Shown here piece after piece: positions 14,501 to 41,925 of a stretch of DNA of 64,000 nt. A program made the translations under genes and the position numbers. How positions within the stretch are numbered: the stretch's first letter is position 1; the number at the start of each line of letters is the position of its first letter. Source of the stretch: Liolophura sinensis (Eukaryota; Mollusca; Polyplacophora; Chitonida; Chitonidae); assembly GCF_032854445.1 (NCBI RefSeq), contig NC_088306.1, positions 19,317,764-19,381,763 of the forward strand. Reading direction: 5' to 3'. The notes beneath the pieces were generated by a model. That model worked only from the letters and a program-made list of their open reading frames with translations, searched no databases and was not told the DNA's origin.

Positions 14501-16255
14501 AAAGGTAGATGGAGGGAAGACAACTGGACGTGGGGTGTGGAGCGAAAGCACTGCATGCCTGTGAATATGTAGCGAGAAAGGTGGATGTGAGGGAAGACGA
14601 CTGGATGTGGGGTGTGGAGCGAAAGCACTGCATGCCTGTGAATATGTAGCGAGAAAGGTGGATGTGAGGGAAGACGACTGGACGTGGGGTGTGGAGTGAA
14701 AGCACTGCATGCCTGTGAATATGTAGCGAGAAAAGTGGATGTGGAGGGAAGACGACTGGACGTGGGGTGTGGAGCGAAAGCAATTCATGCCTGTGAATAT
14801 GTAGCGAGAAAGGTGGATGTGGAGGGAAGATAACTGGATGTGGGGTGTGGAGCGAAAGCAATGCATGCCTGTGAATATGTAGCGAGAAAGGTGGATGTGG
14901 AGCGACAAAAGCGGATGTGGAGGGAAGACGACTGGGCGTGGGGTGTGGAGCGAAAGCACTGCATGCCTGTGAATATGTAGCGAGAAAGGTGGGTGTGAGG
15001 GAAGACGACTGGACGTGGGGTGTGGAGCAAAAGCACTGCATGCCTGTGAATATGTAGCGAGAAAGGTGGATGTGGAGGGAAGACGAGTGGGCGTGGAGTG
15101 TGGAGCGAAAGCAATTCATGCCTGTGAATATGTAGCGAGAAAGGTGGATGTGGAGCGAGAAAAGTGGATGTGGAGGGAAGACGACTGGACGTGGGGTGTG
15201 GAGCGAAAACAATGCATGCCTGTGAATATGTAGCGAGAAAAGTGGATGTGGAGCGAGAAAAGTGGATGTGGAGGGAAGACGACTGGGCGTGGGGTGTGGA
15301 GCGAAAGCACTGCATGCCTGTGCATATGTAGCGAGAAAGGTGGATGTGAGGGAAGACGACTGGACGTGGGGTGTGGAGCGAAAGCACTGCATGCCTGTGA
15401 ATACGTAGCGAGAAAGGTGGATGTGAGGGAAGACGACTGGACGTGGGGTGTGGAGCGAAAGCAATGCATGCCTGTGAATATGTAGCGAGAAAGGGGATGT
15501 GGAGCGAGAGAAAAGTGGATGTGGAGGGAAGACGACTGGGCGTGGGGTGTGGAGCGAGAGCGCTGCATACCTGTGAATATGTAGTGAGAAAGGTGGATGT
15601 GAGGGAAGACGACTGGACGTGGGGTGTGGAGCGAAAGCACTGCATGCCTGTGAATATGTAGCGAGAAAGGTGGATGTGGAGGGAAGACGACTGGGCGTGG
15701 AGTGTGGAGCGAAAACAATGCATGCCTGTGAATATGTAGCGAGAAAGGTGGATGTGAGGGAAGACAACTGGACGTGGGGTGTGGAGCGAAAGCACTGCAT
15801 GCCTGTGAATATGTAGCGAGAAAGGTAGATGGAGGGAAGACGACTGGACGTGGGGTGTGGAGCGAAAACAATGCATGCCTGTGAATATGTAGCGAGAAAT
15901 GTGGATGTGGAGCGAGAAAAGTGGATGTGGAGGGGCGGGTGGCGGGTGTGGGTGTGGAGCGAAAACAATGCATGTAGCGAGAAAGGTGGACGTGGAGCGA
16001 GAAAAGTGGATGTGGAGCGTGGATGGCGGGTGTGGGTGTGGAGTAAAAACAATGCTTGTGGATGAGGAGCGAAGACGGCCGGGTGTGCGGATTTGGAGCG
16101 CAAACAATGCATGCATGTGAATATGTAGCGAGAAAGGTGGATGTGGAGCGAGGCTGGCATGTATGAATGTGGAGCGATGACGGTCGAGTGTGCGAATATG
16201 GAGCGAAAACAATGCATGTATGTGGATATGCAGCAAGAAAGGTGGATATGGATGT
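8585..16255. repeat. Giant minisatellite, about 78-bp unit, roughly 100 copies
   Basis: Unit landmarks on the + strand are GGGAAGACGACTGGACGTGG, GGTGTGGAGCGAAAGCA, ATGCATGCCTGTGAATATG and TAGCGAGAAAGGTGGATGTG. The basic length is 78 bp. Recurrent variants are 77 bp (GGATGTGAGGGAAG), about 75 bp (GGTAGATGGAGGGAAG) and units with an extra GTGGATGTGGAGCGAGAAAA block. The + strand is rich in purines and G; the minus strand is pyrimidine-rich. All three minus-strand frames of the unit lack stops, so open frames of up to 1,026 codons (11548-14628) occur there without implying a gene. The last few units (from about 15925) are degenerate, with GCGGGTGTGGGTGTGGAG variants. Confidence 0.97.
9480..12735. 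repeat. 1,705-bp higher-order duplication inside the 78-bp array
   Basis: About 9480-11030 is repeated almost base for base at about 11185-12735, an offset of exactly 1,705 bp. Rare unit variants keep the same order in both copies, for example GAGCAAAAGCAATGC at about 9598 and 11303 and GGTCGTGGGGTG at about 10981 and 12686. Differences are few (GAGACAGG at 11998 against GAGAAAGG). This indicates recent amplification of a block of about 22 units. Confidence 0.85.
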
Positions 16256-21882: not shown

Positions 21883-22041
21883 ATGTCATTCACAGAGGGC
21901 GGGGAGGGGCTCACCCGCAGACGTTCCACACGGCGATCTGTAGTAAAGAGGTATATCTTGGCAGTTGACATTGGATCCACCACCCTACGGAGCCACGTCT
22001 ATGATCAGAATGGCAGCATTAGAGGAACAAGCAGCAAAAAG
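21883..22041 (+). CDS. GK5: GK5 exon 1
   Basis: 53 codons from the ATG, ending in phase 0 at AAAAAG then GTGGGA. Carries [19 protein letters not shown], the N-terminal phosphate-binding strand-turn-strand of FGGY kinases. The first 22 residues are polar and Arg-rich, with no signal peptide. Confidence 0.93.
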
Positions 22042-24651: not shown

Positions 24652-24719
<68 letters not shown>

Positions 24720-27700
24720 CCTATGTTTGACTAGCTGCTGGAGTAAGGGCGGATCAAATTACCTGTATGGGTTTAACGACTCAAAGGAACACCTTTGTTA
24801 CCTGGAATAGGTAAGTACAGTAGCCATGATGAAAGAGCAGTCTTTTTAAGCTGTAACATGACAAATATTTGGAATGAAAACTTGACAAGAATTTCATCAT
24901 CAGAAGTCATATGAAACACTACAGTAGTGGGAAGGTCTGTCAGCAGCCTGTAGATGGTCGTGGGTTTCCGCCAGGCTCCGCCGGGTTTCCTCCCACCATT
25001 ATGCTGGCCGCCGTTGTATAAGTGAAATATTCTTGAGTACGTCATAAAACACCATTCTTAAAAACACCAATCAAATAAATAAATAAATGAAGCCACTACA
25101 GCAAAACAGATGGGTAAGTGGAAAGTATCGAACTTGAACGATATATCCGCCATTGATTTCTAACAAACTGATTTGGCCTCGGGGAATTCATGTCACTCGG
25201 TTGCTTCTATCCATTGTGTTCTGACAGTCATTACCTGTTGTCGTATATTGCCTGTTTCCAGAGTGACGGGTGAGCCATATCACAAGATGATCACATGGCA
25301 GGACATGAGAGCTCGAGATTACGTTGAAGAGTGGAATCGCTCTTATACCATGAAGTAAAAATGCTCCTTGTTTGGAAAGTTTTCTTAGTATGCAGTGAGA
25401 TTGAATTAACTGTTTAAGTGGTGTTATCTTTTAATGATTATGCCTCTTCATTTATACATGTGTATCATTGATAACAAGGATTTCGATAATTTTTCTGAAT
25501 GTTTGTTTATTTATTTATTTTATTTTTATTTTGATTAACAGCTCTGAAAGGAAAAGCTCTTCTGAATAATTTGAAAAAAAGTAAAATGCAAATTAGAAAA
25601 GGAGTGGGCTTCGTCTCATTCATTTCTAAACTGAGTTTGTCTTGTTCTGATTGAACTAACAGCTAACTCACACGCTATGAATTTTCTTTAATGATACAAC
25701 AAGACAGTTTAAAAGATAAACTGTTTGGGTTTGATTTCAGATGTTCAATGGAGGTTCAAAACTGTTACATTTCCTGACAAGACGAAAGCGTTACTTAGCC
25801 GCCAGTGTTCTCAGGTTCTTATCTCCACAGGTAGCTGTACACTTTATCTTGCATCTCAGTGGACCCTCAAGGGCTTACATGCAAAGATACATCTCTGTAT
25901 ATATGCCCCTGGCCTACCCAAAGTCTTCCACAAATTTGAAAAACTAAATATCACAAATATAATTCACTGTAAATCTTTGACATGTTCATGCACTGAAACA
26001 CTCCTTTTCCATGGAATTTATTCATACAGTTATTATGAAAATGATTCTAAAAATGATTTGTTTATATCATTAAAGATGCAAGCTTCATAAAACTGTGCAA
26101 ATTATCTTTCTACACCCATAGTTTTTCTCAAAAATGTGTCAAAATATTGTATGCAGAGGTGGGTGAAAAGGTTGAAGAATTGGAGTAGTTTTTTTTTTTT
26201 TTAAATTTTTTGATTCAAATTACTGTTACTTTAGTAGTGAATTTAATCTTTAAAACATTGACAAATACGGCTTTTATAATAATATTCATCACAAGTTACA
26301 TGTGACTGAGCGCTTTACTTGCCTAATTCGTTGAGGATTTAGGAGGCATGTGTTGACTAAATCAGTGGGCCCTGTCACAGCTGTGACCCATTACACAGTG
26401 TAAAACGGAAACTGTTACTTGCTGTTTAAGGATAATTCAGGTGTTTTTATTTACACATTTTATAGATAACATAAAAGTGAAAACTTAAAATACATATGTG
26501 TTGGATATAACTCATCGTCTGTTCAATTTTGTATGAATTTCAGGTATCCATGAGACTGTTGTGGGTTTTGGATAACATTGATGGGGTGAGTTAGCAGTGT
26601 TTTTAAAATGGCTCTTCTTCCTGTGAAAGTGTGAAATTCTTGGTAGAATGCGTCTAGCTTGGATCATCTGAACTATACCTGTATTCTAACGTCCTGTACC
26701 ATGGTATAAGTTCTCACAAATCGACTTTAGGTGGCATCAAATTCATGTGGTATCATTTAATTTTCATAGTGTCTTTTATTCTCAAAAACAACAAATAAAC
26801 GCCATTCAATCTGTCCAGCAGAGGTTTTTTACTCTTTGTACAAAGTGAGGAGGTAACTGTGATAATGAGATGTATTAGTCAGTGGTAACCTCCCTTGTAA
26901 TAGGTGAAGCTTGCAGCCAACAAGGTCACATGGTATTCGGATGCATAGAGACTTGGCTGATTTGGAAACTGACTCGTGGGGCGACGTTTGCCACTGGACT
27001 ACTCGTGTGCCAGTGCCACTGGCTTGTTTGACCCCTTTCAGGTGAGAATTGTCAAGACAGTTTTGAGTGCCTGAGGTCACTGGTTCAAAACCCACAGTTG
27101 TCTCCTTTCCAGTTTTCTCTGCTATACCCAGAGAGTGAAGGTCTCAGATATCGATAATACTTGTACTTCAACTACTGTATGAATGACTTCTGCTAATCTG
27201 AAGTTAAATACTCTTGTATATAGCATAAAACTACCCTTGAAATAAGGAAATGAACTTCTGCTGGCCAAGCTGTATAATGGGTTCTCCCTGGAGAGGACTA
27301 ACCCTTTGAGCAATGAGATCATGTGAGCAAATCCATCTCCACTAGCTGGTACATGGGGAGCTTACGTCAGATGGTTTGGCAGTCACTTGGAGAGGTGTAG
27401 GCTCTTTATCCATCTCTCACTTGTACTTCTCTATGGGAACAAGATTCGGTTAAGTTAATGACAAAACACCAGTTAAATAAATAAGTAACTGAATAAACCA
27501 TGTATCTGTGGTCTATTTTCTGGGGATAGGCTCTGCCCAGTTCCTCCCACCGTAATGCTGGCCGCTGTTGTATAAGTGAAACATTCCTGAGTACGTCGTA
27601 AAACACGAATCAAATAAATAAAATAAATAAATCAGTGAATCAGTACAAAAGTGTCATTTCCTCTTACCATGAAGCTGGCTGTCATTGTATAGGTGAAATA

Positions 27701-30700
27701 TTCTTGAATACGGCATAAAACTCCCTATCAAGCAAACAACCAAAGGTGTCAAGTTCTGATCTTAGCAATAGTTTTTCTTATATGCAGAGCTGAGGACATT
27801 TAATATCAGGTGTTAAGAGGTGTATTACTGATACCTTACAAAACTTGTTATCTCAAAATCTCCATAAATGTTAATCACTGTTTAGGTAGAGTGGAGCTCA
27901 GCCGTATGCAACCTTCTTGACATCCCCATGTCCATTTTCCCCAAAGTCCTGGATACAAGGTAAGCTGAATTAAATTTCACTGGGTCTGACACTTTATAAA
28001 TTACATGAGGTGATATAAATTATTGATGATTATGAACAGGTGAGCTAAATTAATCCTGTACAGGTTAGCTGAATTAATCCTCACCAGTGAGCTGAATTAA
28101 TCCTGTCCAGGTTAGCTGAATTAATCCTCAACAAGTTAGTGGAATTAAGCCTTACCCAGTAGCTGAATAAATCATCACCAAGTTAGCTGAATTAATCTCA
28201 CCAAGTTAGCTGAATTAATCTCACCAGGTTAGCGGAATTAAGCCTCACCCAGTGAGCTGAATTAATCATCACCGAGTTAGCTGAATAATCCTCGCCAAGT
28301 TAGCGGAATTAAACCTCACCCAGTGAGTTGAATTAATCATCACCAAGTTAGCTGAATTAATCTCACCAGGTTAGCGAATTAAACCTCACCAGTGAGCCGA
28401 ATTAATCATCACCGACTTAGCTGAATTAATCCTCACCAAGTTAGCGGAATTAAACCTCACCCAGTGAGTTGAATTAATCATCACCAAGTTAGCTGAATTA
28501 ATCCTCACCAAGTTAGCTGAATTAATCTCACCAGGCTAGCAGTGAGTGGAATTAATCATCACCAAGTTATTTGAATTAATCATGACCAAGTGAGTTGAAT
28601 TAATCATCTTCAAGTGAGTTGAATTAATCATCTTCAAGTGAGTTGAATTAACCTTCACCAAATGAGTTGAAGTAGCAATCACCTCACCAAGTTAGCTGAA
28701 TTAATCATCACCAAGTGAGTTGAATTAATCATCTTCAAGTGAGTTGAATTATCATCTTCAAGTGAGTTGAATTAACCTTCACCAAATGAGTTGAAGTAGC
28801 CATCACCTCACCAAGTTAGCTGATTTAATCATCACCCAAGTGAGTTGAATTAATCATCTTCAAGTGAGTTGAATTATCATCTTCAAGTGAGTTGAATTAA
28901 CCTTCACCAAATGAGTTGAAGTAGCCATCACCTCACCAAGTTAGCTGATTTATCATCACCAAGTGAGTTGAATTAATCATCTTCAAGTGAGTTGAATTAT
29001 CATCTCCAGGTGAGTTGAATTAACCTTCACCAAATGAGTTGAAGTAGCCATCACCTCACCAAGTTAGCTGAATTAATCATCACCAGTGACTTGAATTTAT
29101 AGTCACCAAGTTACATATAGCCATCACCAAATGAGTTGAATAGAGGAGTTTTGAGTTTGACTTTTTTTATCACAAAAGTTTTTAAAAAGCCTGTACGTGA
29201 CCTGTAAAAAATGTAAAGAAACTATTTTTGATCATATTACTGCAATATGATGTCTGAAAAATGTTCAGTGATATAATAATAATTCATGTAGAGTGGACAA
29301 GAGATGGAGACAGTTGAGGAGCTGAATGTCTGTGGACATGAGATGATCCTAAACGAAAGAGGTGTCATTTGTGCCCCTGGAGCATGGTGAGGCAGTTGAT
29401 CGGAATTAAAAATAATGTCAAAACTGGTAGCCTAGTTTTTATTACAGAAATCACAGGGTACATGACACAATAGGACTGTTTTTGCTCAGCAACAAAGCAG
29501 TCAGAACTCGAAACTGTTTTTGTTTATTATCACTGGGGTGTTTGAATTTAGAATTGTTGAAATAAACTACCTATATGTTTTTGTGGGTTTACTGATACTT
29601 CCCTTTTCTCCTAGTGGACATTTTGGAGAATGTGACTGCGAGTTGTTTGGAGTTGGGATTCCCATTTCAGCCGTGGTAAGTGTGTAATTTAGTAAGCTTT
29701 CTGTAAAGACATTCCCATTTCAGCCGTGGTAAGTGTGTAATCCAGTAAGCTTTCTGTAAAGACATTCCCATTTCAGCCGTGGTAAGTGTGTAATCCAGTG
29801 AGCTTTCTGTAAAGACATTCCCATTTCAGCCGTGGTAAGTGTGTAATCCAGTGAGCTTTCTGTAAAGACATTCCCATTTCAGCCGTGGTAAGTGTGTAAT
29901 TTAGTAAGCTTTCTGTAAAGACATTCCCATTTCAGCCGTGTTAAGTGTGTAATCTAGTAAGCCTTCTGTAAAGACATTCCCATTGACAATGTAGAGGTTA
30001 CTTCATTGCTGCAGAAGACACCCAACATGTCAGCCTGCTCCATTAGTAATATATCACAGGTCAACCGGTATTTCCCCTTTTGCTGAGCAGTAAACCAGGG
30101 AATTTCCAAAATTGCATGTATTAAGTTTGACCTAACTTTGGACTTTGGACAAATCCAAGTTTCTCGTTTACGAGACAGGCACTTTATCAGTATTACATTT
30201 ATAAAGACTCATGTACTGCAGTGCGATTTAGATACTTATTTATTTATTTGATAGATGTTTTATGCTGTACTCAAGAATATTTCACTTATATGACGACGAC
30301 CACCATTATGGTTTGAGCCCAGGGTGGAGCCCAGGGGAAACCCACAACAATCCGCAGGATGCTGGAAGACCTTCCCACATATGGCCGAAGAGGAAGCCAG
30401 CATGATCTGGATGAACTCACAGGGACAGCGTTGGTGAGAGGCTTCTGGGTCATTGTGCCATGCTGGTACGCTTACCACCTATCAGTTCAGTACGGTTTTG
30501 TATTTGAAAGGCGGTGGGAGAAGGGGAGAGTAAAAGTAATGTTTTATGAAAATGATCATAAGCTTTAGAGTCATTGCCTTTAAATGACTTGCAGACTAAA
30601 CAAAAGCTTTGAAGAATATGTTAATTTTTTTTCCATACCCCATCTTTTAAGTTTGATCTTTTAAGTTTAAGTTACATAAGTAAATAAGAATAAATACAAA

Positions 30701-33700
30701 TTAAAGTAGCAATTTGATGGTTTTGTGACAAATCAAAACAACTCATTGACTGCACAGATAAGCGCTCTTCGCTGCAGTCTGCAGGTTTGAACATTTCCAA
30801 CTAGTGATAACGACATGACATGACCTACGTGTTGACAGTCCAGACCATTTTTGACCAGCAATCCTTACTGTGAAATAGCAATACATGTTGACAGTCCAGA
30901 CCATTTGACCAGTAGTCGTTACCGAAAAATAGTAGTACATGTTGACAAAGCAGACCATTTGACCAGTAGTCGTTACCGAAAAATAGCAATACATGTTGAC
31001 AGTGCAGACCATTTGACCAGCAGGCATTACTAAAAAATAGGAATACACGTTGACAGTCCAGACCATTTAACCAGGAGGCCTTACCGAAAAATAGGAATTA
31101 ATGTTGACAGTCCAGACCATTTGACCAGGAGGCTTTACCAAAAAATAGTAATACATGTTGACAGTCTATACCATTTGATCAGCAGACCTGACCAAAAAAT
31201 AGGAATACATGTTGACAGCATGGACGATTTGACCACCAGACCTTACCGAAAAATAGGAATTAATGTTGACGGTCCAGACCGTTTGACCAGGAAGCCTTAC
31301 CAAAAAATAGGAATACATGTTGACAGTCTATACCATTTGACCAGCAGACCTGACCAAAAAATAGGAATACATGTTGACAGCCCAGACGATTTGACCACCA
31401 GACCTTACCGAAAAATAGGAATTAATGTTGACAGTCCAGACCGTTTGACCAGGAGGCATTACCAAAAAATAGGAATACATGTTGACAGTCTATACCATTT
31501 GACCTGCAGACCTGACCAAAAAATAGGAATTCATGTTGACAGTCCAGACGATTTGACCAGCAGACCTTACCGAAAAATAGGAATACATGTTGACAGTCCA
31601 GACCGTTTGACCAGGAGGCCTTACCGAAAAATAGGAATACATGTTGACAGTCCAGACTGTTTGACCAGGAGTCCTTACCGAAAAATAGGAATACGTGTTG
31701 ACAGACTATACCATTTGACCTGCAGACCTGACCAAAAAATAGGAATACATGTTGACAGCTCAGACAATTTGACAGTACTGACAGTTGACCAGCAGACCTT
31801 ACCGAAAAAGAGGAATGTCAGTGTAACTAATGTTAATGATAAGACTTCACGGCAAACATGCATTACGATCTGATGTTAAGAAAAGACACTGAGTTTCAAG
31901 CCGAACATATCAGATTGGTTTAGGTGGCATTTAGAAAGTGGTTTCAATTTATACATTTGATTGGTGTTTTATGAAAAATATTTCACTTATACAACATCAG
32001 GCAGCATTACGGTGAGAGGAAACCGAGCAAAGCCCGTCTGAAACCTACATCTATCCTCATACAATTAGAGGGGAAGAATGTGGTTTTAAGTATGAAACAG
32101 TGGTGTAGATGGTTAGGATGGCACTTTGCCCTGTAGTGACACAATAATGCCCTAAATCAACATCACTTCATTATCGAAATGTTGATTTCCAATTGCAGGT
32201 GGCCGATCAGCAGGCAGCCATGTTTGGGGAATGTTGCTTCGATGCAGGAGATGTGAAGTGCACCATGGGTACGGGCACATTCATCGATCTCAACACAGGA
32301 AGTAAACCCCATGCCTCTATAGCAGGTAATCTTTGAAAATCCTCTGCATCAGTTGTCCATGTCAAGTGGTTATGCCGATCTTGTTGTTCATGTATAAGAC
32401 ATTTACAGCCATGATAAAGCCATCAGACATGATGTTCCAGTCACAAAAACAGAAACATCAGGCTGACAAGTATTTATATCTCCATATTCCTTACTATCCC
32501 CGATAGCATGGTTGGTAGAGCATCCGCTTTGGGAGCAGTAGATCCAGGGTCAATCCTGGGTCGTGTCACACCTAAGACATTAAAAGAGGAAGTTGTATTC
32601 AGCATGAAGGGGATAGTGGAACGACTGGTTGATGGCTCGGGCTGGTCGGCTGACTTGCCTTTGGTAGGTCATCTCATTGAAGCAGCACTAGATTAAAGAG
32701 GGGTGGAAATCCATCCTGCAACAAGGAGGCACATAACATGCACTCGTCGTCATATGACTGAAAAATTGTTAAGTACGTCGTTAAACCCCAACCACCCACT
32801 TGCTCTCTCCTTATTCCTGACACCAGACTATCGGCATAAGTTTGAAAAGAGATCAAAACTTCGTTTTCTCTACACTTGGTCAAAATGTGATAATTGCGTT
32901 GGTAGACCATATTTAGAAGAAAGAAACCGAAGGCCGATTTCACAAATTTTTTTCTGATTTAAGTAAAAGTTTATTACCTCTCCACAGGACATTGTAATTA
33001 TACACATCTTAAGATTTAAAATTTTAATATACATAAGCTCTGAACTTTTATTTGAAATTTAGTCTTAATTTAAAACTGGCTTTGTGGAATATACCCCAGG
33101 GGCTGTTTCTCAAAGGGGTCTTCAGGTTATGCGGGCCTATTTACCATGGCATCACATACCGACAGTATATGTTGCTTTGGTATTTGTGACCGGCGTAACA
33201 TTACGACCCCTTTGAGAAACAGCCCCCAGGTCCTGAATAATAAAGGAATAATCATGAATATAGTTTCATCCTGGAGAGAAAGTAGAAGAAGGAAATAAAG
33301 TCAAGATCATGAGACAGAGCACTGAAAATTGTATCTGAACCTGTATCCTCGTGTATTCTCTTGAAGAGAGGGCCTCAGTTGGTTAGCAGCGCGCTAGTGT
33401 AGCGTAATGACCCAGGAGCCTCTCACCAATGTGGTTGCTGTGAGTTCAAGCCCAGCTCATGCTGGCTTCCTCTTTGGCCGTACGTGGGAAGGTCTTTCAG
33501 CAACCTGCAGATGGTCGTGGGTTTCCCCCAGGCTCCCCCTGGTTTCCTCACACGATAATGCTGGCCGTAGTCATGTAAGTGAAATATTCCTCAGTACAGG
33601 GCAAAAAAACAAATAAAATAAATAATTCAATGCTTTGAAATACTTGAAGTTTAAGGTGTTCTTTAGGTATTCACACGAACAGTTAAAATAAAACGGTCAG

Positions 33701-36700
33701 CTGAGGCAAATTGACAAGAGGTTGTACTCAACAGGTTACATGCCATGTGACCACTTGCCCACTGTTACACTGTTGTTGTTGCTCTAGTTTTACACCCTAT
33801 ACTGTAGACTTTTTATGCCATATTCATAGCGTTGGGTGGCAATGCAATTGAAGGCAAATGTGGTCACTGTGAGTTCAAGTCTAACTCATGCTGTCTTCCT
33901 CTGCAGTCGTAAGTGGGAGTCTCTTTCAGCAACCTGCGGATGGTTGTAAGTTTCCTCCCACCATAATGCTGGCCGCCTTTTTATAAGTACAGCGTTAAAT
34001 ACCATTTAGATAAATAAGTGATCGCAGGTCGACATGATGTCACAATCGTTGCATTTTCATTTCTCATTATTTTAGGGCTTTATCCTCTCATCGGGTGGAA
34101 GATCCAGGACGAGCTGGTGTACCTTGCAGAGGGGGTGGCCTCAGACACAGGAGTAGCCATGGAGTGGGCAAAGAGCATAGGTAAACTATCGTATAGAAGG
34201 TTGTTTTGTCATACCTGGTTGTCAGTTTACATGTACTCTGAAGTGTGTTAAAAGGTTCTTTGTACGAGGGGATCAGCTAAGCACTCACTGTAGCAAATGT
34301 CAAGGGGGACTGGCGTCTTTGGTGGGTGTTTTGAGCTCAGTTTGAATACATGTAGAATATATCCACTAATTCCGTGTACGTGGGAAGGTCTGCAAGCAAT
34401 CTGCAGATGGTCATGATTTTTCCCATGCTCTGCTCAGTTTCCTCCCAACATAATGCTGGCCACCATCGTATAAGTGAAATATTCTTGAGTATGGCGTAAT
34501 TCACCAAACAAATAAATAAACAGATATCACAACTTCTTGTCAAGGGCATGTACTGTGATGTGTTATACAGTATATGATGCATCTTGCATCTTTGAGCTCA
34601 GTTCAACATCAAGAATGGGGGCCTTTATCGCCGGGGGAAGTGGGGCTGTGGTAACATGGAGCATGGACTCAGGAGCCTAAATAAAAGGCTGCTAAAATCT
34701 AGCAGTCTGTGTATTTTAGAAATTCTAAAAAGATAAATTGAACTATTTTTATAGACAGTGTTTACTTATCTTTCTTTTGACATATACTCCACTACCGTTA
34801 CGTGTATATTTTGATTTTGTTTTTAGATTAGATTATATGCTCTTGATCCTAGTACATGTATGTCTTCTGATGCAAATGTTATCAAACGAAAATGAATTTG
34901 TGTTCTCAATATGTCCTCCAAAAAAAAAATCTTCCTTTTTAACCAGGATTGTGTGAAGACGTATCAGAAATGGCCGCCCTGGCAGAATCTGTTGAAGGTA
35001 TGTTGAACGCAGGGATTTTAGACCCAAGTATTCGTTGGTAAAATTCAGTTAAAAACTCAAAATGGGGGTACCAAAAACTCCATTCTGTATTTTTCGGGTA
35101 TAGGTACTCAAGTTTTTGGCTAAAAACTCAGTTGCATTCAAAAATATATGCCTAGCAATGAGCGGTCGACTTCAATCGCCAACGGCTGCATCCGTGACAG
35201 GCAGAAGATTCATGTGGGTATTGGCTGCAATTAAATTAAAATTAGGCTTTTAAATATATGTGAACTATGGTGATAAGGTTTTGTGATTATAAATGAAAGT
35301 GGGAGTCCATTCGTATTTAGTTTGATCAATCTTGGGTGTGATAGTAGTAGATACAACACGAGCGGGTTTCCAATGAATGTCGTTCTGATACACGCTATCC
35401 CATTGGCTGAGGGCCTCCTGTGGACCAATGAGTGAACCTCTAATAAATTAGGAACTGTATACAACAGTGCAATGGCTGTTTGACAGCTATGGCAATGCTA
35501 GCGGTTTCTGACCGGGCTACAGAGGACGATTAAAACCGAAAACAATCTAAAACTAATCGTGTTGCTTGACCTCATGAATGACTGGCTCCGATAATGGTGA
35601 ATTAATTTATACGTTTTACGTTACACTGCTCAAAAGGTGACGCGTCACTTTGCCAGTTGATTAAAAATGGATGTATTTACTCGTCAGTCAAAGGCCTGTG
35701 CGATAACAAGTGACACCTCGTAGATTTTCGTGTACTGCTCATAGTAGGCACGAATGTCATCTCCTTGTATAGTGATAATAAATCCCCCATGGTTTTAATC
35801 TCTGATCCAGATCACGAGGATTGGCTAGACCACAGGAAACAATCAAGGATTAAAGCCACTCTTGATAATACCCGTTTGACGTGCTTGAGTCATTTCAGTC
35901 ATATTGAAAGATTTTTTTCAGTTTTTCCTGGATCTTGAAAATTTATTCTGGTGACCACATCTTTGAAGTAAATCCGCATACACTTGAGAGCAACACTTAA
36001 TATTTGGCTTTTGTCCAAGTCTGTAATATTGTAACATATTGTAACATATTGCTTTTGTTCATCCCACGTATGAACCGTTTTGCTCATGGACATTGATGCA
36101 CCAATTGAAACAGCTAGTTGGCTTACAACCCTGGCATGCCTTGAGCATCTGACCAATGCGATCGCAAGGAGTTCAGGTCAAGCTCATGTTAGCTTCCTTT
36201 CTATTCGTATGTGGGATGGTCTTAAAGCAACCTGCGGAAGGTTGTGGGTTTCCTCCCACCATAATGCTGGCTTATGTAAGTGAAATACTCCGGAGTACGG
36301 TGTAAAACACAAATCAGATAAATAAATATAAAAAAATATAAATATGAAATAAAAAATAAGTAAAAATAATTCCAGTTGTGTGTTTGTCACAAACAGGGGA
36401 TTGACCACAAGCAGAACCATATTCTGGAAAGAGCCTAATAAATCAATCCTTAACACTTCCATTTGTACATAAGAAAATAACTTGAGGATACTGGGCCTTC
36501 TTTCACAAAACTTCGTAATTCACTCTTTCATAACTTTTCTTGTAACTGATCTCACCTTATGACACTATGTAACAGTGGCAACGTCTTTTACAAAAAAAAA
36601 AAAAAAATCACGAGAAATCATGAGTGACAAAGTTTTGTGAAAGTGGCCCCTGGTTCTTTGAGTTTCATGTACACATGGGTGATAAATGTGTGACATCTTT

Positions 36701-39700
36701 CTGCCTTAAGACAATGGGTGTGTACTGTGTGATAAATGTGTGACATCTTTCTGTCTTTAGACATTGAGGGTGTACTGTGTGATAAATGTGTGACATCTTT
36801 TTGCCTTCAGACAATGGGGGTGTACTGTGTGATAAATGTGTGACATCTTTTTGCCTTCAGACATTGGGGGTGTAATGTGTGATAAATGTGTGACATCTTT
36901 CTGCCTTCAGACAATGGGGGTGTACTGTGTGATAAATGTGTGACATCTTTCTGCCTTCAGACATTGGGGGTGTAATGTGTGATAAATGTGTGACATCTTT
37001 CTGCCTTCAGACAATGGGGATGTACTGTGTGATAAATGTGTGACATCTTTCTGCCTTCAGACATTGGGGGTGTAATGTGTGATAAATGTGTGACATCTTT
37101 CTGCCTTCAGACAATGGGGGTGTACTGTGTGATAAATGTGTGACATCTTTTTGCCTTCAGACAATGGGGGTGTACTGTGTGATAAATGTGTGACATCTTT
37201 CTGCCTTCAGACATTGGGGGTGTAATGTGTGATAAATGTGTGACATCTTTCTGCCTTCAGACAATGGGGGTGTACTGTGTGATAAATGTGTGACATCTTT
37301 CTGCCTTCAGACATTGGGGGTGTAATGTGTGATAAATGTGTGACATCTTTCTGCCTTCAGACAATGGGGATGTACTGTGTGATAAATGTGTGACATCTTT
37401 CTTCAGACAATGGGGGTGTATTGTGTGATAGATGTGTGACGTCTTTCTGCCTTCAGACAATGGGGGTGTACTGTGTGATAGATGTGTGACATCTTTCTGC
37501 CTTCAGACAATGGGCGTGTACTGTGCAATAAATGTGTGACATCTTTCTGCCTTCAGACAATGGGGGTGTCTACTTTGTTCAAGCTTTCAGTGGTCTTCAG
37601 GTAAGAATCACTTTTGAACACTGTTATGTGGAGATATTCAAATAAATAAATATCACTTGTTTGGATAGATTTACCCATAATTAGAAATCAGGCCGTCTCA
37701 TTTTCATTTTCTCATTTTTTCCTATTTTTCCTATCTCTCCCGAGTTAATTTTGTCAGAAAAGGGTGTTTCAAAGACACTGTGTGTGAGTTTAAGTGTGTT
37801 TGATACATACATGTATCAGTAGACCTGTTTCACAGTCACAGAGATAATGAGGGAAAACCGTGATATTGTGGATGTGATGTTGGTCTACCATTGTGCTGTT
37901 GATTTTGTTTCAGGCTCCTATCAATGATGACACAGCTGTGACGACCTTGATTGGACTGACCCCAAACACAACAAAAGCTCACATTGTCAGAGCCTTACTG
38001 GAATCTGTGGCCTTCAGGTTCAAGCTTCTTTATGAGACTCTGCTCAGTGAAACCAGTATACCACTGTCCCATATAAGGTATGTTCTAACGTAGTCATGGT
38101 ATACCACTGTCCTTTGTAAGGTATGTTCTAATGTAGTCATTGTACACCACTGTCCTGTGTAATGTATGTTCTAACGTAGTCATGGTATACCACTGTCCTG
38201 TGTAAGGTATGTTCTAACGCAGTCATGGTGCACCACTGTCCTATGTAAGGTATGTTCTAACGTAGTCATGGTACACCACTGTCCTATACAAGGTGTGTTT
38301 TAAAGTATTCATGGCATTCCACTGTCCTATATAAGGTATGTTCTAACGTAGTCATGGTATACCACTGTCCTATTTAATGTATGTTCTAACATAGTCATGG
38401 TATACCACTGTTCTACACAAGGTATGTTCTAACGTAGTCATGGTACACCACTGTCCTGTGTAAGGTATGTTCTATCGTAGTCATGGTACACCACTGTCCT
38501 ATGTAAAGTATGTTCTAATGTAGTCATGGTACACCACTGTCCTATGTAAGGTATGTTCTAACGTAGTCATGGTACACCACTGTCCTATACAAGGTGTGTT
38601 TTAAAGTATTCTTGGCATTCCACTGTTCTATATAAGGTATGTTCTAACGTAGTCATGGTATACCACTGTCCTACACAAGGTATGTTCTAACGTAGTCATT
38701 GTACACCACTGTCCTGTGTAATGTATGTTCTAACCTTATCATGGTACACCACTGTCCTATATAAGGTATGTTCTAACGAAGTCATGGTATACCACTGTCC
38801 TACACAAGGTATGTTCTAATGTAGTCATGGTATACCACTGTCCTATACAAGGTATGTTCTAACATAGTCATGGTATACCACTGTCCTACACAAGGTATGT
38901 TCTAATGTAGTCATTGTACACCACTGTCCTGTGTAATGTATGTTCTAACGTAGTCATGGTACACCACTGTCCTATACAAGGTGTGTTTTAAAGTATTTAT
39001 GGCATTCCACTGTCCTATATAAGGTATGTTCTAACGTGGTCATGGTATACCACTGTCCTACACAAGGTATGTTCTAATGTAGTCATGGTATACTGTCCTG
39101 TGTAAGGTATGTTCTAACATAGTCATGGTATAGCACTGTTCTATACAAGGTATGTTCTAACGTAGTCATGCTATACCACTGTCCTGTTTAATGTATGTTC
39201 TAACGTAGTCATGGTACACCACTGTCCTATACAAGGTGTGTTTTAAAGTATTCATGGCATTCCACTGTCCTATATAAGGTATGTTCTAACGTAGTCATGG
39301 TATACCACTGTCCTACACAAGGTATGTTCTAACGTAGTCATGGTACACCACTGTCCTGTGTAAGGTATGTTCTAATGTAGTCATGGTGTACCATTGTCCT
39401 ATTTACGGTGTGTTCTAACATAGTCATGGTACACTACTGTCCTATACAAGGTGTGTTCTAACATAGTCATGGTATACCACTGTCCTATATAAGGTATGTT
39501 CTAATGTAGTCATGGTATACCCTTGTCCTATATAAGGTATGTTCTAATGTAGTCAGGGTATTCCACTGTCCTATACAAGGTATGTTCTAATGTAGTCATG
39601 GTATACCATTGTCCTATACAAGGTGTGTTCTAATGTAGTCATGGTATACCATTGTCCTATACAAGGTATGTTCTAACGTAGTCATGGTATACCCTTGTCC

Positions 39701-41925
39701 TATATAAGGTGTGTTCTAACGTAGTCAGGGTATTCCACTGTCCTATACAAGGTATGGTACAGCCAAATCCTAACCTTAACTCCTCCTCTCATCTTGGCCC
39801 TGTGGTCGGCGTGTGATACACAGACCATAAACGGACAATGGGCCGACAGTGAGCAAATCTGCTGTCATCACTGGTGTATCATCCATCCACCATACATGGA
39901 TGGTGGCTAGGTCATGGCGCCATGATCGGCGGAGGATTGTATGACATTTTGACCCGATCAGTACCCTAATTCTTCTAATTTTGGGGACAGATATTAGTAG
40001 AGTTGAAATTAGAATATTACATTTCTTTACCAGTCCTTTTGAAAAATATTAAAAGATATGAGTATGTTTTTCATTAGGTAGTCTACCCATGTGAGAAAAA
40101 CGAAATTCAGTATTCCTGCTAGAATTACATATATGTAGGGTGAAATGAGCAGACCAGGTGTGCCAAAAATTAGACGAAATTGGGTAGTTGTAGTTCCAGT
40201 TTAGACTTGCAGATTTATTTTTATTCCCTGTCCAGTGCCCTTCCACATTCAATAAACTGGCATACTATGTGGTAACCTTGAGTGCTGGACATAGAATTTA
40301 CATTTAGCAAGCTCCCTCTGGGCTTATCGTGACCGGGTCATGTATTAAAGTCGTCTGACGAAGAAGTCATCAATATAGCGAAAGCATTTACACGATTGAA
40401 GTCAGCATGTCCACAACTACATGGCAGTTGTTCCAGGAAACAATAATAAATCATGATCAGTATACGCCTTCCATGTATGATGGCCCCAGGATCGTGTCGC
40501 CAATTGTGTGGGGATCTGCGTATGGCCCGCGGACGGTCAAAGTATCGTACGCTGACTGTCCATGAGATGTTGGGCCACAGTGTGTAGAATTTAAGGTTAG
40601 AATCTGGCTGTACCGAATGTTATACTGTAGTCAGGGTATACCACTGTCTTGTACTAGGTATGTTCTCCTCTAATCATGGTATACCACTCTCATATATAAG
40701 ATATACATGTATATCATACTGTAAAATGGTATACCGCTTTTCTATATCAGGTAGTTTATGTGGTAAACATTGGTGTAACATAATTGTCATACATCAGATA
40801 TATACATATGTGCTAAATGGTAAGCCATGTTGTAATCACAGTATCTGATATGAGTTTATACACTGTTGCCTGAGGTGTCTTTCGCATGATTATATAGTGA
40901 GGCAGCACTATATAATGTGCCTGACAACTCTGAGGCATCCTGCCACAGAGAGGAAGTATCATATCATATCATATATCGAAACTAGGTGATGTTGAAAGTA
41001 ATGTCTAATTAACCTCGAGAACTCGGCCAACAGACGAAAATGTAGGTCTGCGGGACACCAGCACCATTTCTCTAAAGGTGTAGTTCGTGGTTTATCCTAC
41101 AGGGCAGACGGAGGCGTGTGCTCTAACAACTTTGTGATGCAGCTAGTGTCTGATCTCATTGACCAATCAGTGGACAGGGCTAAACAGGCTGATATGACAA
41201 GTCTAGGAGCGGCTTTCCTGGCGGGACTGGCAGCAGGTGAGCTATAGTTGGGGTTTAATTTGTAAATAATGAACACAGTTGAAATACATTATGCATGTAG
41301 TTTGGACAAGAAGGAAGTAATGCTGTGAGGTGGCATCATTTTTTACAGGTTTCTGTTTTAATCATCATTTAGCTGATCTTTAGAACAATGTATTTTTCTT
41401 CATATTTTTAAAATGCAGTTGCATGGGCTGTTAGCATTTATTTCTATGCCGTTGTTGAGGGCCTGTGGGAAGAGCAAATACTGTATCTTACCTGAAGTTT
41501 GGTGGAAAAAAAGGCATTTTCAGATGGACCTAAGGGCTTTAAAATTATACCCTAATTCTTCGAATTTTTGGCACAGATATTCGATGTCGTAGTGCCGAAA
41601 GCAGAATATTACATTTTACTTTTTGGAAAGTTAAAGATATGAATATGTTGTTCATTAGATGGTCTAACCACGTGAGAAAAAAGAAACTAAATATTCCTGT
41701 TACAATTACATGTACACTGGCTGAAAAGAGGAACATGCAAACATGTTGTCATTCAAAAGCGACTTCTTTTCTTCAGGTATTTGGCAGTCGAAAGACGAGT
41801 TGCGGGCCATCCGGAAATCAGATTGCGTTTTCAAGCCCCGGCCTACTTGGTCTACATACAAGGACGTCATCAATACCTGGGATAGAGCGGTGAATAGATC
41901 AAAACATTGGTACAAGCCCTCCTGA
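21883..41925 (+). CDS. GK5: Putative glycerol kinase 5 (FGGY carbohydrate kinase), 16 exons
   Basis: FGGY kinases transfer the gamma-phosphate of ATP to sugars or polyols in the cytoplasm; GK5 is the glycerol-kinase-like branch. I assemble 16 coding exons from 21883 to the TGA at 41923-41925, about 1,601 bases and 533 codons, close to the roughly 530 residues I recall for vertebrate GK5. Landmarks in order: [16 protein letters not shown] near residue 26 (first ATP phosphate loop); [13 protein letters not shown] near 97; [17 protein letters not shown] near 120; [12 protein letters not shown] near 200; [19 protein letters not shown] near 277 (second FGGY half begins); [33 protein letters not shown] near 380; [19 protein letters not shown] near 439; [12 protein letters not shown]. 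The C-terminus is SKHWYKPS. Exon phases match throughout except at exon 4/5, exon 6/7 and inside exon 7, where single-base conflicts occur. Four introns carry splice-site-derived minisatellites. The exact substrate cannot be told from sequence. Confidence 0.93.
22970..23075 (-). mobile_element. SINE tail, minus strand
   Basis: TTTATTTGTTTGTTTGGTG, CTGTACTCAAGAATATTTC and GCATTATTGTGGGAG, then loss of similarity. Lies in GK5 intron 1. Confidence 0.75.
23458..23551 (+). CDS. GK5: GK5 exon 2
   Basis: Acceptor GGTTGTTTCAG, donor ATGACAG then GTAACT; phase 0 to 1. Encodes [20 protein letters not shown] and [10 protein letters not shown], the conserved P.PGW.E.DP segment that follows the first beta-hairpin in FGGY kinases. 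Confidence 0.93.
23751..24113 (+). mobile_element. Second SINE family, copy 2, with target-site duplication
   Basis: Head CGGCCCGGATATCACAGTTGG with box B GGATCAATCCTTGATCG, body CCTCGCTTGGCGTTCAGCATG and AAATCCGTCCTGCAACAAG, end GTTAAACCCCAAGCACTCAC. CTCCTCACCTTTTT occurs at 23724-23737 and again at 24111-24124, a clear target-site duplication. This copy is therefore a defined retroposed insertion in GK5 intron 2. Confidence 0.92.
24440..24592 (+). mobile_element. Degenerate SINE tail
   Basis: CTTCCATTGTGTAATTGAAAC, CATTGAGCATGGTGTTGAAC and GATCAAATAAATGAAATAAAA follow the SINE tail pattern with many changes. Confidence 0.5.
24652..24712. repeat. (TA)n microsatellite
   Basis: About 28 TA dinucleotides in GK5 intron 2, followed by CACACATA. 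Confidence 0.95.
24735..24810 (+). CDS. GK5: GK5 exon 3
   Basis: Acceptor GTTTGACTAG, donor TGGAATAG then GTAAGT; phase 1 to 2. Encodes [20 protein letters not shown] and FVTWN. GL..QR.T...W is the FGGY segment just before the active-site cleft. Confidence 0.92.
24912..25090 (+). mobile_element. SINE body and tail, head missing
   Basis: GTGGGAAGGTCTGTCAGCAG, GATGGTCGTGGGTTTCCGCC, CTCCCACCATTATGCTGGCC, GTGAAATATTCTTGAGTACG, then ACACCAATCAAATAAATAAA. A short duplication (ACACCATTCTTAAAAACACCAATC) sits just before the tail. Confidence 0.9.
25262..25354 (+). CDS. GK5: GK5 exon 4
   Basis: Acceptor TTGCCTGTTTCCAG, entered in phase 2. Encodes [20 protein letters not shown] and [12 protein letters not shown]. 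The W-Q-D-M-R run aligns with the W-Q-D-x-R substrate-site motif of glycerol-kinase-like enzymes. The only GT donor is ATGAA then GTAAAA (phase 2), but exon 5 needs phase 0 entry, so one base is missing at this junction. A GG doublet (AAG then GTAAAA) would repair the phase. Confidence 0.88.
25741..25830 (+). CDS. GK5: GK5 exon 5
   Basis: Acceptor GGGTTTGATTTCAG, donor CTCCACAG then GTAGCT; 30 codons. Encodes [20 protein letters not shown] and [10 protein letters not shown], matching the K.....V.HF.TR.KR...AS segment of GK5. The internal ATG at 25741 is not a start. Confidence 0.9.
26544..26585 (+). CDS. GK5: GK5 exon 6
   Basis: 14 codons, [14 protein letters not shown]. Acceptor TGTATGAATTTCAG, donor GATGGG then GTGAGT. 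It fits the short L..VW.L.N segment before the central loop. It ends in phase 0, which does not match the most likely start of exon 7. Confidence 0.85.
26904..27041 (+). CDS. GK5: GK5 exon 7, with a one-base frameshift
   Basis: The 5' part reads [20 protein letters not shown] then [10 protein letters not shown], the conserved F-G-x-I-x-T-W-L segment. After 26997 the frame is lost (TAG near 27028), but one frame over the sequence continues correctly as [14 protein letters not shown] to the donor CTTTCAG then GTGAGA. An extra G in ACTGGACTAC (26996-26997) explains it. The start is uncertain: TAATAG before 26904 is a normal acceptor but needs phase 1 entry, while exon 6 ends in phase 0; an alternative acceptor TGTATTAG before 26879 gives phase 0 and nine extra residues. 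Confidence 0.85.
27345..27485 (+). mobile_element. Highly degenerate SINE copy
   Basis: TACATGGGGAGCTTACGTCAG, AAAACACCAGTTAAATAAATAAG and spacing consistent with the SINE. Much of the body is lost. Confidence 0.4.
27520..27636 (+). mobile_element. SINE 3' half
   Basis: GGGGATAGGCTCTGCCCAG, CTCCCACCGTAATGCTGGCC, GTGAAACATTCCTGAGTACG, then CACGAATCAAATAAATAAAA. Confidence 0.8.
27655..27740 (+). mobile_element. SINE 3' end fragment
   Basis: TTTCCTCTTACCATGAAGC, GTGAAATATTCTTGAATACG and GCATAAAACTCCCTATCAAG. It is the second SINE tail within 140 bp, so two insertions lie nearly head to tail. Confidence 0.7.
27886..27959 (+). CDS. GK5: GK5 exon 8
   Basis: Acceptor TCACTGTTTAG, donor GATACAAG then GTAAGC; phase 0 to 2. 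Encodes [20 protein letters not shown] then VLDT, the W......L.IP...FP.V.D motif of the family. Its donor is the apparent seed of the array that follows. Confidence 0.92.
27957..29125. repeat. Minisatellite in GK5 intron 8, built from the exon 8 donor
   Basis: About 45 units of 21-25 bp, such as CCAAGTTAGCTGAATTAATC and CAAGTGAGTTGAATTAATC. They begin directly at the exon 8 donor ACAAG-GTAAGCTGAATTAA and are related to it. Many units read CAA-GTGAGT or CAG-GTGAGC, which are good 5' splice-site hexamers in sense orientation. Later units form a larger repeat of roughly 120 bp containing AATGAGTTGAAGTAGCCATC. Confidence 0.9.
29615..29675 (+). CDS. GK5: GK5 exon 9
   Basis: Acceptor CCCTTTTCTCCTAG, donor CAGCCGTG then GTAAGT; phase 2 to 0. 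Encodes [21 protein letters not shown], the G.......G.PI...V segment leading into the second ATPase half. The donor is copied downstream. Confidence 0.92.
29656..29985. repeat. 53-bp tandem repeat copying the exon 9 donor
   Basis: Six full copies and a partial one of a 53-bp unit: the last bases of exon 9 (ATTCCCATTTCAGCCGTG) plus the intron start (GTAAGTGTGTAAT) and AAGCTTTCTGTAAAGAC. Donor-like GTG-GTAAGT occurs at 29675/76, 29728/29, 29781/82, 29834/35 and 29887/88. The sixth copy (29940/41) has TTAAGT and is dead. Using a later donor would add in-frame GTA AGT GTG TAA, a stop. Confidence 0.95.
30235..30482 (-). mobile_element. SINE, minus strand
   Basis: TTATTTATTTATTTGATAG, CTGTACTCAAGAATATTTC, GGAAACCCACAACAATCCG, GAAGAGGAAGCCAGCATG and GCTTCTGGGTCATTGTGCC. 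The head is truncated after GCTTACCACC. Confidence 0.85.
30835..31810. repeat. 54-bp minisatellite in GK5 intron 9
   Basis: About 18 units of 54 bp: GTTGACAGTCCAGACCATTT, GACCAGCAGACCTTACCG, AAAAATAGGAATACAT. The unit is a multiple of 3 and open in one + frame, giving a 250-codon frame (31121-31873). It lies inside the intron, with kinase exons on both sides, and is not annotated as coding. Unlike the neighbouring arrays it shows no match to a splice junction. Confidence 0.93.
31950..32060 (-). mobile_element. SINE tail, minus strand
   Basis: ATTTGATTGGTGTTTTATG, AAAATATTTCACTTATAC and GCAGCATTACGGTGAGAGG, then decay. In GK5 intron 9. Confidence 0.7.
32199..32325 (+). CDS. GK5: GK5 exon 10
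   Basis: Acceptor TCCAATTGCAG, donor ATAGCAG then GTAATC; phase 0 to 1. Encodes [20 protein letters not shown], then [23 protein letters not shown]-x-F-G and GTG-T/S-F are the hallmark motifs of the second FGGY half; the Asp of DQQ is the expected catalytic base. Confidence 0.95.
32497..32803 (+). mobile_element. Second SINE family, copy 3
   Basis: Head CCCCGATAGCATGGTTGGTA with GGGTCAATCCTGGGTCG, body AGCATGAAGGGGATAGTGG and AATCCATCCTGCAACAAGG, end AGTACGTCGTTAAACCCCAA. It lacks the CCTCGCTTGGCG stretch of the other two copies and is in GK5 intron 10. Confidence 0.88.
33099..33226. mobile_element. Short MITE with 22-bp terminal inverted repeats
   Basis: GGGGCTGTTTCTCAAAGGGG at the left end and CCCCTTTGAGAAACAGCCCC at the right end are perfect reverse complements (the full arm is 22 bases). 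The 128-bp element has no coding capacity. In GK5 intron 10. Confidence 0.85.
33370..33628 (+). mobile_element. Full-length tRNA-headed SINE
   Basis: Head GGGCCTCAGTTGGTTAGCAG with TAATGACCCAGGAGCCTC, box B GTGAGTTCAAGCCCAGC, body GTACGTGGGAAGGTCTTTC and CTCACACGATAATGCTGG, tail AACAAATAAAATAAAT. In GK5 intron 10. Confidence 0.9.
33845..34018 (+). mobile_element. SINE lacking part of the head
   Basis: GTCACTGTGAGTTCAAGTC, CTTTCAGCAACCTGCGGATG, CTCCCACCATAATGCTGGCC and a shortened tail TTTAGATAAATAAG. It ends only about 60 bases before GK5 exon 11. Confidence 0.85.
34076..34180 (+). CDS. GK5: GK5 exon 11
   Basis: Acceptor TCTCATTATTTTAG, donor AGCATAG then GTAAAC; phase 1 to 1. Encodes [20 protein letters not shown], then [21 protein letters not shown] and the small-residue-rich helix match GK5. 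Confidence 0.94.
34370..34525 (+). mobile_element. SINE body and tail
   Basis: CGTGTACGTGGGAAGGTCTG, CTCCCAACATAATGCTGGCC, GTGAAATATTCTTGAGTATG and CACCAAACAAATAAATAAAC. GK5 intron 11. Confidence 0.88.
34947..34997 (+). CDS. GK5: GK5 exon 12
   Basis: Acceptor TTCCTTTTTAACCAG, donor GTTGAAG then GTATGT; phase 1 to 1. Encodes [17 protein letters not shown], the linker helix before [11 protein letters not shown]. Confidence 0.9.
35030..36125. other. GK5 intron 12, unique part
   Basis: No exon, RNA gene or repeat family is seen. The 77- and 85-codon minus-strand frames have no supporting context. Confidence 0.5.
36130..36335 (+). mobile_element. SINE with eroded head
   Basis: GAGCATCTGACCAATGCGATC, GAGTTCAGGTCAAGCTCATG, GCAACCTGCGGAAGGTTGTG, CTCCCACCATAATGCTGG and AACACAAATCAGATAAATAA. 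Confidence 0.85.
36491..36652. mobile_element. Short MITE with imperfect inverted repeats
   Basis: GGGCCTTCTTTCACAAAACT on the left is mirrored by AGTTTTGTGAAAGTGGCCCC on the right. About 160 bp, A/T-rich, non-coding; a poly-A run (about 36594-36607) lies inside. GK5 intron 12. Confidence 0.7.
36675..37556. repeat. 50-bp tandem repeat copying the exon 13 acceptor
   Basis: About 17-18 units of exactly 50 bp (one of 46), each with CATCTTTCTGCCTTCAG followed by ACAATGGGGGTGTACTG and GATAAATGTGTGA. CTTTCTGCCTTCAG then ACAATGGGGGTGT is also the true intron 12/exon 13 junction at 37556/57, so each unit carries a decoy 3' splice site plus 13 bases of exon 13. ACAATGGGGGTGTACTG and ACATTGGGGGTGTAATG units alternate over much of the array, giving a 100-bp superunit. 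Confidence 0.96.
37557..37600 (+). CDS. GK5: GK5 exon 13
   Basis: Phase 1 to 0, [15 protein letters not shown], donor CTTCAG then GTAAGA. V.F..AFSGL.AP is a strongly conserved FGGY motif. It is the last of about 18 look-alike acceptors. Confidence 0.93.
37914..38077 (+). CDS. GK5: GK5 exon 14
   Basis: Acceptor TTGATTTTGTTTCAG, donor CATATAAG then GTATGT; phase 0 to 2. Encodes [20 protein letters not shown], then [20 protein letters not shown], then [15 protein letters not shown]. The RA.LE..AFR helix is the conserved interdomain part of FGGY kinases. The end of this exon seeds the next array. Confidence 0.95.
38057..39755. repeat. 43-bp tandem repeat copying the exon 14 donor
   Basis: About 39 units of about 43 bp: ATACCACTGTCCTATATAAG then GTATGTTCTAACGTAGTCATGG. 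The first half is the last 20 bases of exon 14 (ATACCACTGTCCCATATAAG, 38058-38077) and the second half the first 22 of the intron. Most units keep AAG-GTATGT in sense orientation. A variant with AAGGTGTGTTTTAAAGTATTCATGGCATTCC recurs at intervals and marks blocks of several units. Reading through the first donor meets TAG within 20 bases. Confidence 0.96.
39756..40614. mobile_element. Non-autonomous DNA transposon inside the 43-bp array
   Basis: The ends are inverted repeats: GGTACAGCCAAATCCTAACC on the left and GGTTAGAATCTGGCTGTACC on the right (about 25 bases with two mismatches). The 859-bp interior has no transposase frame. The array unit is broken at GGTAT and resumes beyond the element as ATGTTATACTGTAGTC. 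A subregion (about 39965-40155) is also found, diverged, at 41550-41735. Confidence 0.85.
40615..40860. repeat. Decayed outlier copies of the 43-bp repeat
   Basis: GTATACCACTGTCTTGTACTAG then GTATGTTCTCC and three weaker copies, separated from the main array by the transposon. They are much more diverged than the main array, so this edge is older or has escaped homogenisation. Confidence 0.75.
41103..41236 (+). CDS. GK5: GK5 exon 15
   Basis: Acceptor GTTTATCCTACAG, donor GCAGCAG then GTGAGC; phase 2 to 1. Encodes [19 protein letters not shown], then [19 protein letters not shown], then LAGLAA. (R)ADGG...N.F.MQ..sD is the ATP-binding motif; LGAA.LAG is the C-terminal FGGY signature region. 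Confidence 0.95.
41550..41735 (+). mobile_element. Fragment related to the interior of the 39.8-40.6 kb transposon
   Basis: ACCCTAATTCTTCGAATTTT, AGAATATTACATTTTACTTT, GATATGAATATGTTGTTCATT and CCTGTTACAATTACATGTAC match 39965-40155 at most positions. No terminal repeats are kept. It ends about 40 bases before exon 16. Confidence 0.7.
41777..41925 (+). CDS. GK5: GK5 exon 16, with stop
   Basis: Acceptor ACTTCTTTTCTTCAG, phase 1 entry, TGA at 41923-41925. Encodes [20 protein letters not shown], then [20 protein letters not shown], then RSKHWYKPS. Matches the C-terminal helices of GK5 (G.W....EL......VF.P...W..Y...W..AV.RS..WY). Confidence 0.95.

Follow-up and report, generated by a model that had tools for sequence, protein, structure and literature searches.

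The window analysed here, a stretch of 64,000 nucleotides, holds at positions 21883 to 41925 a gene of 16 exons that, judged by its sequence, is a GK5-type carbohydrate kinase. Matches to the FGGY_C profile fall on exons 14 and 15 of this gene. The designation GK5 and the number of exons are assumed from the human protein, and for exons 3 and 8 the start is approximate; a perfect (TA)29 tract is located at 24653-24710, just upstream of exon 3. When exons 8 to 16 are joined at the junctions given below, they form a single frame with zero internal stops, and this open frame fixes the exon edges at the array junctions. The relevant junctions are the exon 8 donor at 27959/27960, the exon 9 donor at 29675/29676, the exon 13 acceptor at 37556/37557 and the exon 14 donor at 38077/38078. 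Exon 7 (26904-27041) contains an internal 1-bp frame offset that could reflect an error in the assembly, an allele or decay. Since relaxed constraint on this copy of GK5 is thereby possible, the offset is counted against the explanation that we favour. The features that matter for the present analysis are the following:

27887-27959, plus strand: GK5 exon 8, in frame with exons 9-16; start approximate, with no AG directly before 27887
27960-29111, plus strand: start of intron 8 and array with a donor-like unit (TRF for 28040-29111: 24 bp x 44.1)
29615-29675, plus strand: GK5 exon 9, in frame within exons 8-16
29658-29984, plus strand: exon 9 donor array (TRF: 53 bp x 6.2, 96% match; 18 exon bases per unit)
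30826-31773, plus strand: fifth GK5 array, in intron 9 and not at a junction (TRF: 54 bp x 17.5)
36679-37569, plus strand: exon 13 acceptor array (TRF: 50 bp x 17.9, 93% match; 13 exon bases per unit)
37557-37600, plus strand: GK5 exon 13, in frame within exons 8-16
37914-38077, plus strand: GK5 exon 14, in frame within exons 8-16, with FGGY_C match
38056-39756, plus strand: exon 14 donor array (TRF: 43 bp x 39.6, 85% match; 22 exon bases per unit)
40617-40704, plus strand: diverged additional repeats of the exon 14 unit, lying 860 bp beyond the main array

The initial annotation had described four arrays in the introns of this gene, each made from a splice boundary, and all four are indeed recovered by TRF. 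Three of them, at exons 9, 13 and 14, consist of head-to-tail units that span the exon-intron boundary and carry 13-22 coding bases each, close to the 13-20 bases proposed at the outset. The description needs correction for the intron 8 array, which starts 80 bp after the exon 8 donor and whose unit has no clear exon part. Its unit does resemble the first bases of the intron, with an alignment score of 28 that was reached by none of 300 control 42-mers from GK5 (maximum 23). Each of the four junction-side arrays occupies one end of its intron, and the opposite splice site lies outside the array. Together with the array in intron 9, they make up 4,886 of the 18,442 intronic bases of GK5. A 279-codon open frame (31034-31870) covers most of the intron 9 array; no coding evidence was found for this frame, and it can arise because the unit amounts to 18 codons without a stop. 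The window corresponds to G000:C12:19317764-19381763 of an assembly that comprises 609,464,459 bases in 632 contigs. This assembly was first published as Liolophura japonica (PMC11068029), was later renamed by its authors to L. sinensis (PMC12441733), and was built with HiFi reads of 8,347 bp on average at 14x (PMC11068029), so that single reads are long enough to span the GK5 arrays.

We compared the five GK5 units in all ten pairs, and no clear relation between them was found in these comparisons with shuffled controls, as the closest pair was matched or beaten by 6 of 60 shuffles. When parts of the arrays at exons 13 and 14 were searched against the genome, with very common words skipped, matches were returned in GK5 only. 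The view that the arrays are independent events is upheld by the lack of a clear relation between the units together with these GK5-only matches. For the arrays at exons 13 and 14, a dispersed, introner-like element that carries splice sites was rejected as the source, because these searches returned no copies elsewhere in the genome.

The copies within the arrays largely retain their splice motifs, which were scored with a simple matrix. In the exon 14 array, GT is present in all 39 full copies, and 24 of the 38 copies other than the real donor score as high as that donor (6.0). The exon 9 array had been described as five intact copies and one dead copy; GT is accordingly kept in 5 of its 6 full copies, and four of the five decoys score as the real donor does (5.8). 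AG is found in 18 of 18 copies of the exon 13 array, with 14 of 17 decoys scoring at least as high as the real acceptor (5.1). In the intron 8 array, GT occurs in 39 of the 44 full copies, and the donor scores mostly remain below the 7.2 of the real exon 8 donor, with one copy at 8.0. Since so many copies score like the real sites, the sequence by itself bears no mark of the true site. This retention of GT or AG in most copies at exons 9, 13 and 14 would be expected if the copies were preserved as decoy or backup sites with a role in regulating splicing; retained decoy splice sites had been named in the initial annotation. However, the number of offsets that are conserved at least as well as the splice-motif columns is 7 of 43 in the exon 14 unit, 39 of 53 in the exon 9 unit, 32 of 50 in the exon 13 unit and 19 of 24 in the intron 8 unit. 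The motif columns thus do not exceed the remainder of the unit in conservation, which gives no sign of selected decoys, and equal conservation of motif and other offsets is what concerted evolution without selection predicts. In addition, the unit lengths show no bias towards multiples of 3. We therefore regard a regulatory role of the copies as very improbable.

Arrays of this kind are not new. In amphioxus, minisatellite-like repeats termed 'mirages', with a unit that spans an exon-intron boundary, are described in the relevant passages of two papers for Adh3, globins, troponin C and PGBD5; they occur at donors as well as acceptors, many copies retain AG or GT, and normal mRNA was reported or inferred for Adh3, the globins and troponin C (PMC3087553, PMC3902484). 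As far as these passages go, the arrays at GK5 exons 9, 13 and 14 resemble mirages in their boundary-spanning units with exon sequence and in their mostly conserved AG or GT, whereas the intron 8 array differs from mirages in that its unit lacks boundary-spanning exon sequence. Compared with the amphioxus cases described there, the GK5 arrays belong to a different phylum, combine three boundary arrays and a donor-derived one within one gene, and reach up to 39.6 copies. The present study also adds a frequency in a genome sample, and the chiton arrays are known here from the assembled sequence of a single haplotype. No mollusc case and no genome-wide rate was apparent from titles and abstract openings among the matches listed for open-licence PMC papers, a collection outside which most of the subscription literature lies. 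The passages of a paper on earthworm metallothionein describe intronic minisatellites, none of them at a junction (PMC12783039), and none of four junction terms was found in the searched text of a paper on Daphnia tandem repeats (PMC3152781). We conclude that boundary-spanning minisatellites are a known but little-studied kind of sequence, and that their surplus at junctions, which is considered below, is suggestive only.

Two further systems bear a partial likeness to GK5. Human internal tandem repeats in segmental duplications, as described in part of PMC2812944, also include minisatellites that cross exon-intron boundaries. These human repeats vary between paralogs and have been linked there to new introns, whereas the GK5 exon is intact and no second locus appeared when the exon 13 or the exon 14 array was used as query. 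Intron gain by tandem duplication (Hellsten 2011; potato RdRp; PMC4974935, as far as the sections consulted describe it) likewise involves a duplication that carries splice signals, but in GK5 no new intron has been formed and the array does not include the second splice site. The model of Rogers, in which introns arise when exon segments that bear AGGT are duplicated in tandem, shares with GK5 the duplication of exon sequence together with a splice site. It requires both splice sites to come from the duplicated exon segment, and this is the case in none of the four GK5 introns, where each array sits at one end. It was therefore rejected, and we consider it barely conceivable for this gene.

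Taken together, it is quite probable that the GK5 arrays are mirage minisatellites, that is, tandem duplications straddling a junction that were tolerated by splicing and then grew. We infer that a short segment that happens to straddle or adjoin an exon edge would first be duplicated in tandem (the units here measure 24-92 bp). Such a duplication would leave the exon intact with one functional splice site, and the extra copies would go into the intron, which would render it nearly harmless. Slippage or unequal exchange would then lengthen and homogenise the array, as in any minisatellite, and splicing would presumably use the copy on the exon side.

To place GK5 in the context of its genome, arrays were counted around conserved exons, since the initial annotation had raised the question whether such arrays are commoner at junctions than expected. 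Sample 1 was composed of dynein AAA_6 matches (all 90 of the 90 listed), kinesin matches (71 of 132) and myosin matches (39 of 81), which were fetched with flanks and gave 200 exons, 183,237 bases and 48 arrays. Sample 2, the replicate, contained 42 of 109 SNF and 34 of 49 ABC-membrane matches, with 76 exons, 58,695 bases and 17 arrays. The non-dynein matches were picked mainly for having no internal stop and a short open frame, with the arrays not inspected; a few matches with a stop or a longer frame were included as neighbours, and one kinesin match at the edge of a stretch and one close duplicate of an SNF exon were left out. After removal of domain-terminal sides (25 of 400 in sample 1 and 17 of 152 in sample 2), the joint sample covered 276 conserved exons with 510 exon sides from five conserved families. 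An array was defined as a TRF call with a period of at least 10 and a score of at least 60, and a spanning array as one that overlaps the matched coding sequence by 6 bp or more; this criterion was fixed when sample 1 was already known and sample 2 was still to be analysed. As junction calls by a splice matrix are noisy, the final count was based on the distance from the ends of the domain matches. The null expectation was the density of nearest array edges at 60-300 bp (35 in 112,067 bp) multiplied by the unit length minus 12.

By this rule, 13 spanning arrays were found on the 510 exon sides. The expected number depends on the unit length assumed, with P-values from 0.0018 to 0.12, and this dependence is counted against the favoured explanation. 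With the shortest TRF periods (mean 43), 4.9 arrays are expected, which corresponds to a ratio of 2.64 (Poisson P 0.0018; range of 1.21-5.02 when loci are bootstrapped). If the unit is set to the mean of the curated cases described below (53.7), 6.6 are expected (1.96-fold, P 0.019), and with the best-scoring periods, whose mean of 68 includes higher-order repeats, 9.0 are expected (1.45-fold, P 0.12). In our opinion, the middle null is the fairest. Under the shortest-period null, sample 1 alone gave 9 spanning arrays against 3.55 expected (P 0.011), and sample 2 alone gave 4 against 1.38; its P-value of 0.052, obtained under this most favourable null, is counted against the favoured explanation. 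In the joint sample, junction-spanning arrays are commoner than expected, but to an extent that depends on the unit length assumed. Boundary-spanning arrays are common in this chiton genome and perhaps somewhat concentrated at exon edges, but the junction bias is suggestive rather than secure.

The simplest reading of these counts would be pure recurrence in a repeat-prone genome, with no bias towards junctions and with GK5 noticed as an extreme. Arrays occupy 22,357 of the 241,932 sampled bases, the best-scoring periods do not yield a significant surplus (13 against 9.0, P 0.12), and the replicate sample alone is not significant. GK5 has 30 exon sides, for which the sample predicts 0.76 spanning arrays, and the probability of three or more is 0.04 before allowing for the fact that the gene was picked as odd-looking, so that many of the 28,010 genes should resemble GK5 in this respect. 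GK5 is therefore better seen as an upper-tail gene of a genome-wide habit than as a singular event. Nevertheless, both samples deviate in the same direction, by 2.5-fold and 2.9-fold under the shortest-period null, and the joint P-value with the mean curated unit is 0.019. Recurrence without any bias is for this reason a real but minor possibility.

If the surplus is real, it may reflect either biased birth or biased survival of arrays. Biased birth would result from a junction-seeking mutational process, such as transcription- or R-loop-associated breaks, nucleosome edges or repair slippage, that seeds arrays several-fold more often at junctions. Consistent with such a process, 32 array edges lie less than 60 bp from or inside the matched exons against 14.5 expected with the shortest periods (P 5e-5), or against about 16-19 when longer units are assumed; in sample 2, the corresponding numbers are 7 and 4.0 (P 0.11). 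GC content can be rejected as the cause, because at the junction windows it predicts 1.00-fold seeding. The spanning arrays by themselves, however, are only 1.5- to 2.6-fold in excess, and the unit ends lie at no fixed distance from the junction. In view of these observations and of the 9-mer test reported below, we regard a junction-seeking process as unlikely. Biased survival would come about if interior arrays were lost by deletion while deletions that remove a junction were lethal, so that junction arrays persist longer. Differential survival of this type would produce a modest surplus at both edges with no targeted mutation, and the size of the surplus in the sample fits. Yet a deletion down to one junction copy would be harmless, and the effect expected is accordingly small, for which reason we hold this alternative to be slightly less plausible still. 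The reading of the GK5 arrays as tolerated and enlarged junction duplications goes together with a chiton genome that makes many minisatellites around exons and in which a 1.5- to 2.6-fold surplus may lie on exon edges.

Inspection of the sampled loci yielded 14 exon sides, 10 donors and 4 acceptors (P 0.18), at which coding sequence and splice site are clearly contained in an array. In sample 1, these are the donors of L004, L006, L011, L021, L042, L067 and L072 and the acceptors of L004, L023 and L076; in sample 2, they are the acceptor of L123 and the donors of L129, L142 and L144. Compared with the 13 cases obtained by rule, L079 proved to be false and L072 and L076 had been missed, a discrepancy that is counted against the favoured explanation. 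L065 was doubtful and was left out of the count. The curated units measure 26-92 bp and include from 6 to about 80 bp of exon, which implies that there is no fixed offset of the unit from the junction. Only 4 of the 14 unit lengths are divisible by 3, and there is thus no sign of translation or of frame preservation.

Of the arrays located within 60 bp of an exon, 23 had the better-scoring donor motif on the sense strand and 8 on the antisense strand (P 0.011), and arrays farther away showed no such bias (19 against 14). The confinement of this bias to near-exon arrays is counted for the favoured explanation and also for a junction-seeking process. Strong donor motifs, with a score of at least 5, were present near exons in 6 of 32 units on the sense strand, 1 of 32 on the antisense strand and 4 of 32 reversed-sequence controls, the last of which is counted against the favoured explanation. 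In a genome-wide search, the 9-mer CAGGTAAGT occurred three times at a spacing of 20-50 in 301 matches as compared to 158 for the reversed word, with the matches piling up in few arrays. On contigs C1 and C2, 14 distinct arrays were counted by eye, against 6 for the reversed word. Outside clusters, CAGGTAAGT is 1.7-1.85 times denser than the reversed word (first 100 sites of each listing, judged by eye), and after correction for this density the P-value is about 0.36-0.41, or 0.32 at a ratio of 1.65. The 9-mer thus shows no clear donor surplus in arrays, and this is counted against the favoured explanation as well as against a junction-seeking process. As a separate observation, 60 of the first 100 listed CAGGTAAGT sites, in the first 3.8 Mb of G000:C1, fall by eye into 6 same-strand clusters, and the larger clusters on this contig have repeated spacings, as in arrays. 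Similar 36-bp donor-like units were also seen near both ends of one intron of an ABC gene (L147, 12-197; L148, 645-856), and these are probably one array seen from its two intron ends.

A broader proposition would be that in chitons, and perhaps in other minisatellite-rich animals, minisatellites arise preferentially at junctions through mutation tied to splicing, transcription or chromatin, with a few per cent of splice sites lying in self-made arrays of competing copies. We consider this proposition rather unlikely. If about 2.5% of exon sides indeed carry arrays of near-identical splice sites, these would constitute a natural experiment on how the spliceosome chooses among tens of equals. 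At such a rate, the arrays would also be a source of intron lengthening and possibly of new exons, as well as a trap for gene prediction. The junction surplus, if confirmed, would suggest that exon edges, by way of mutation or of survival, play a part in how minisatellites arise.

Lastly, several features that do not belong to the GK5 junctions were observed. A 7.7-kb array of 78-bp units with a higher-order structure (TRF rows of 155, 175 and 253 bp) extends from 8591 to 16252 of the window, and an array of about 340 copies of a 48-bp unit, also called by TRF, runs from 47869 to the window end at 64000. The strongest FGGY_C match of the assembly is located at G000:C536:5-271, at the very start of contig C536, and possibly stems from a contaminant.
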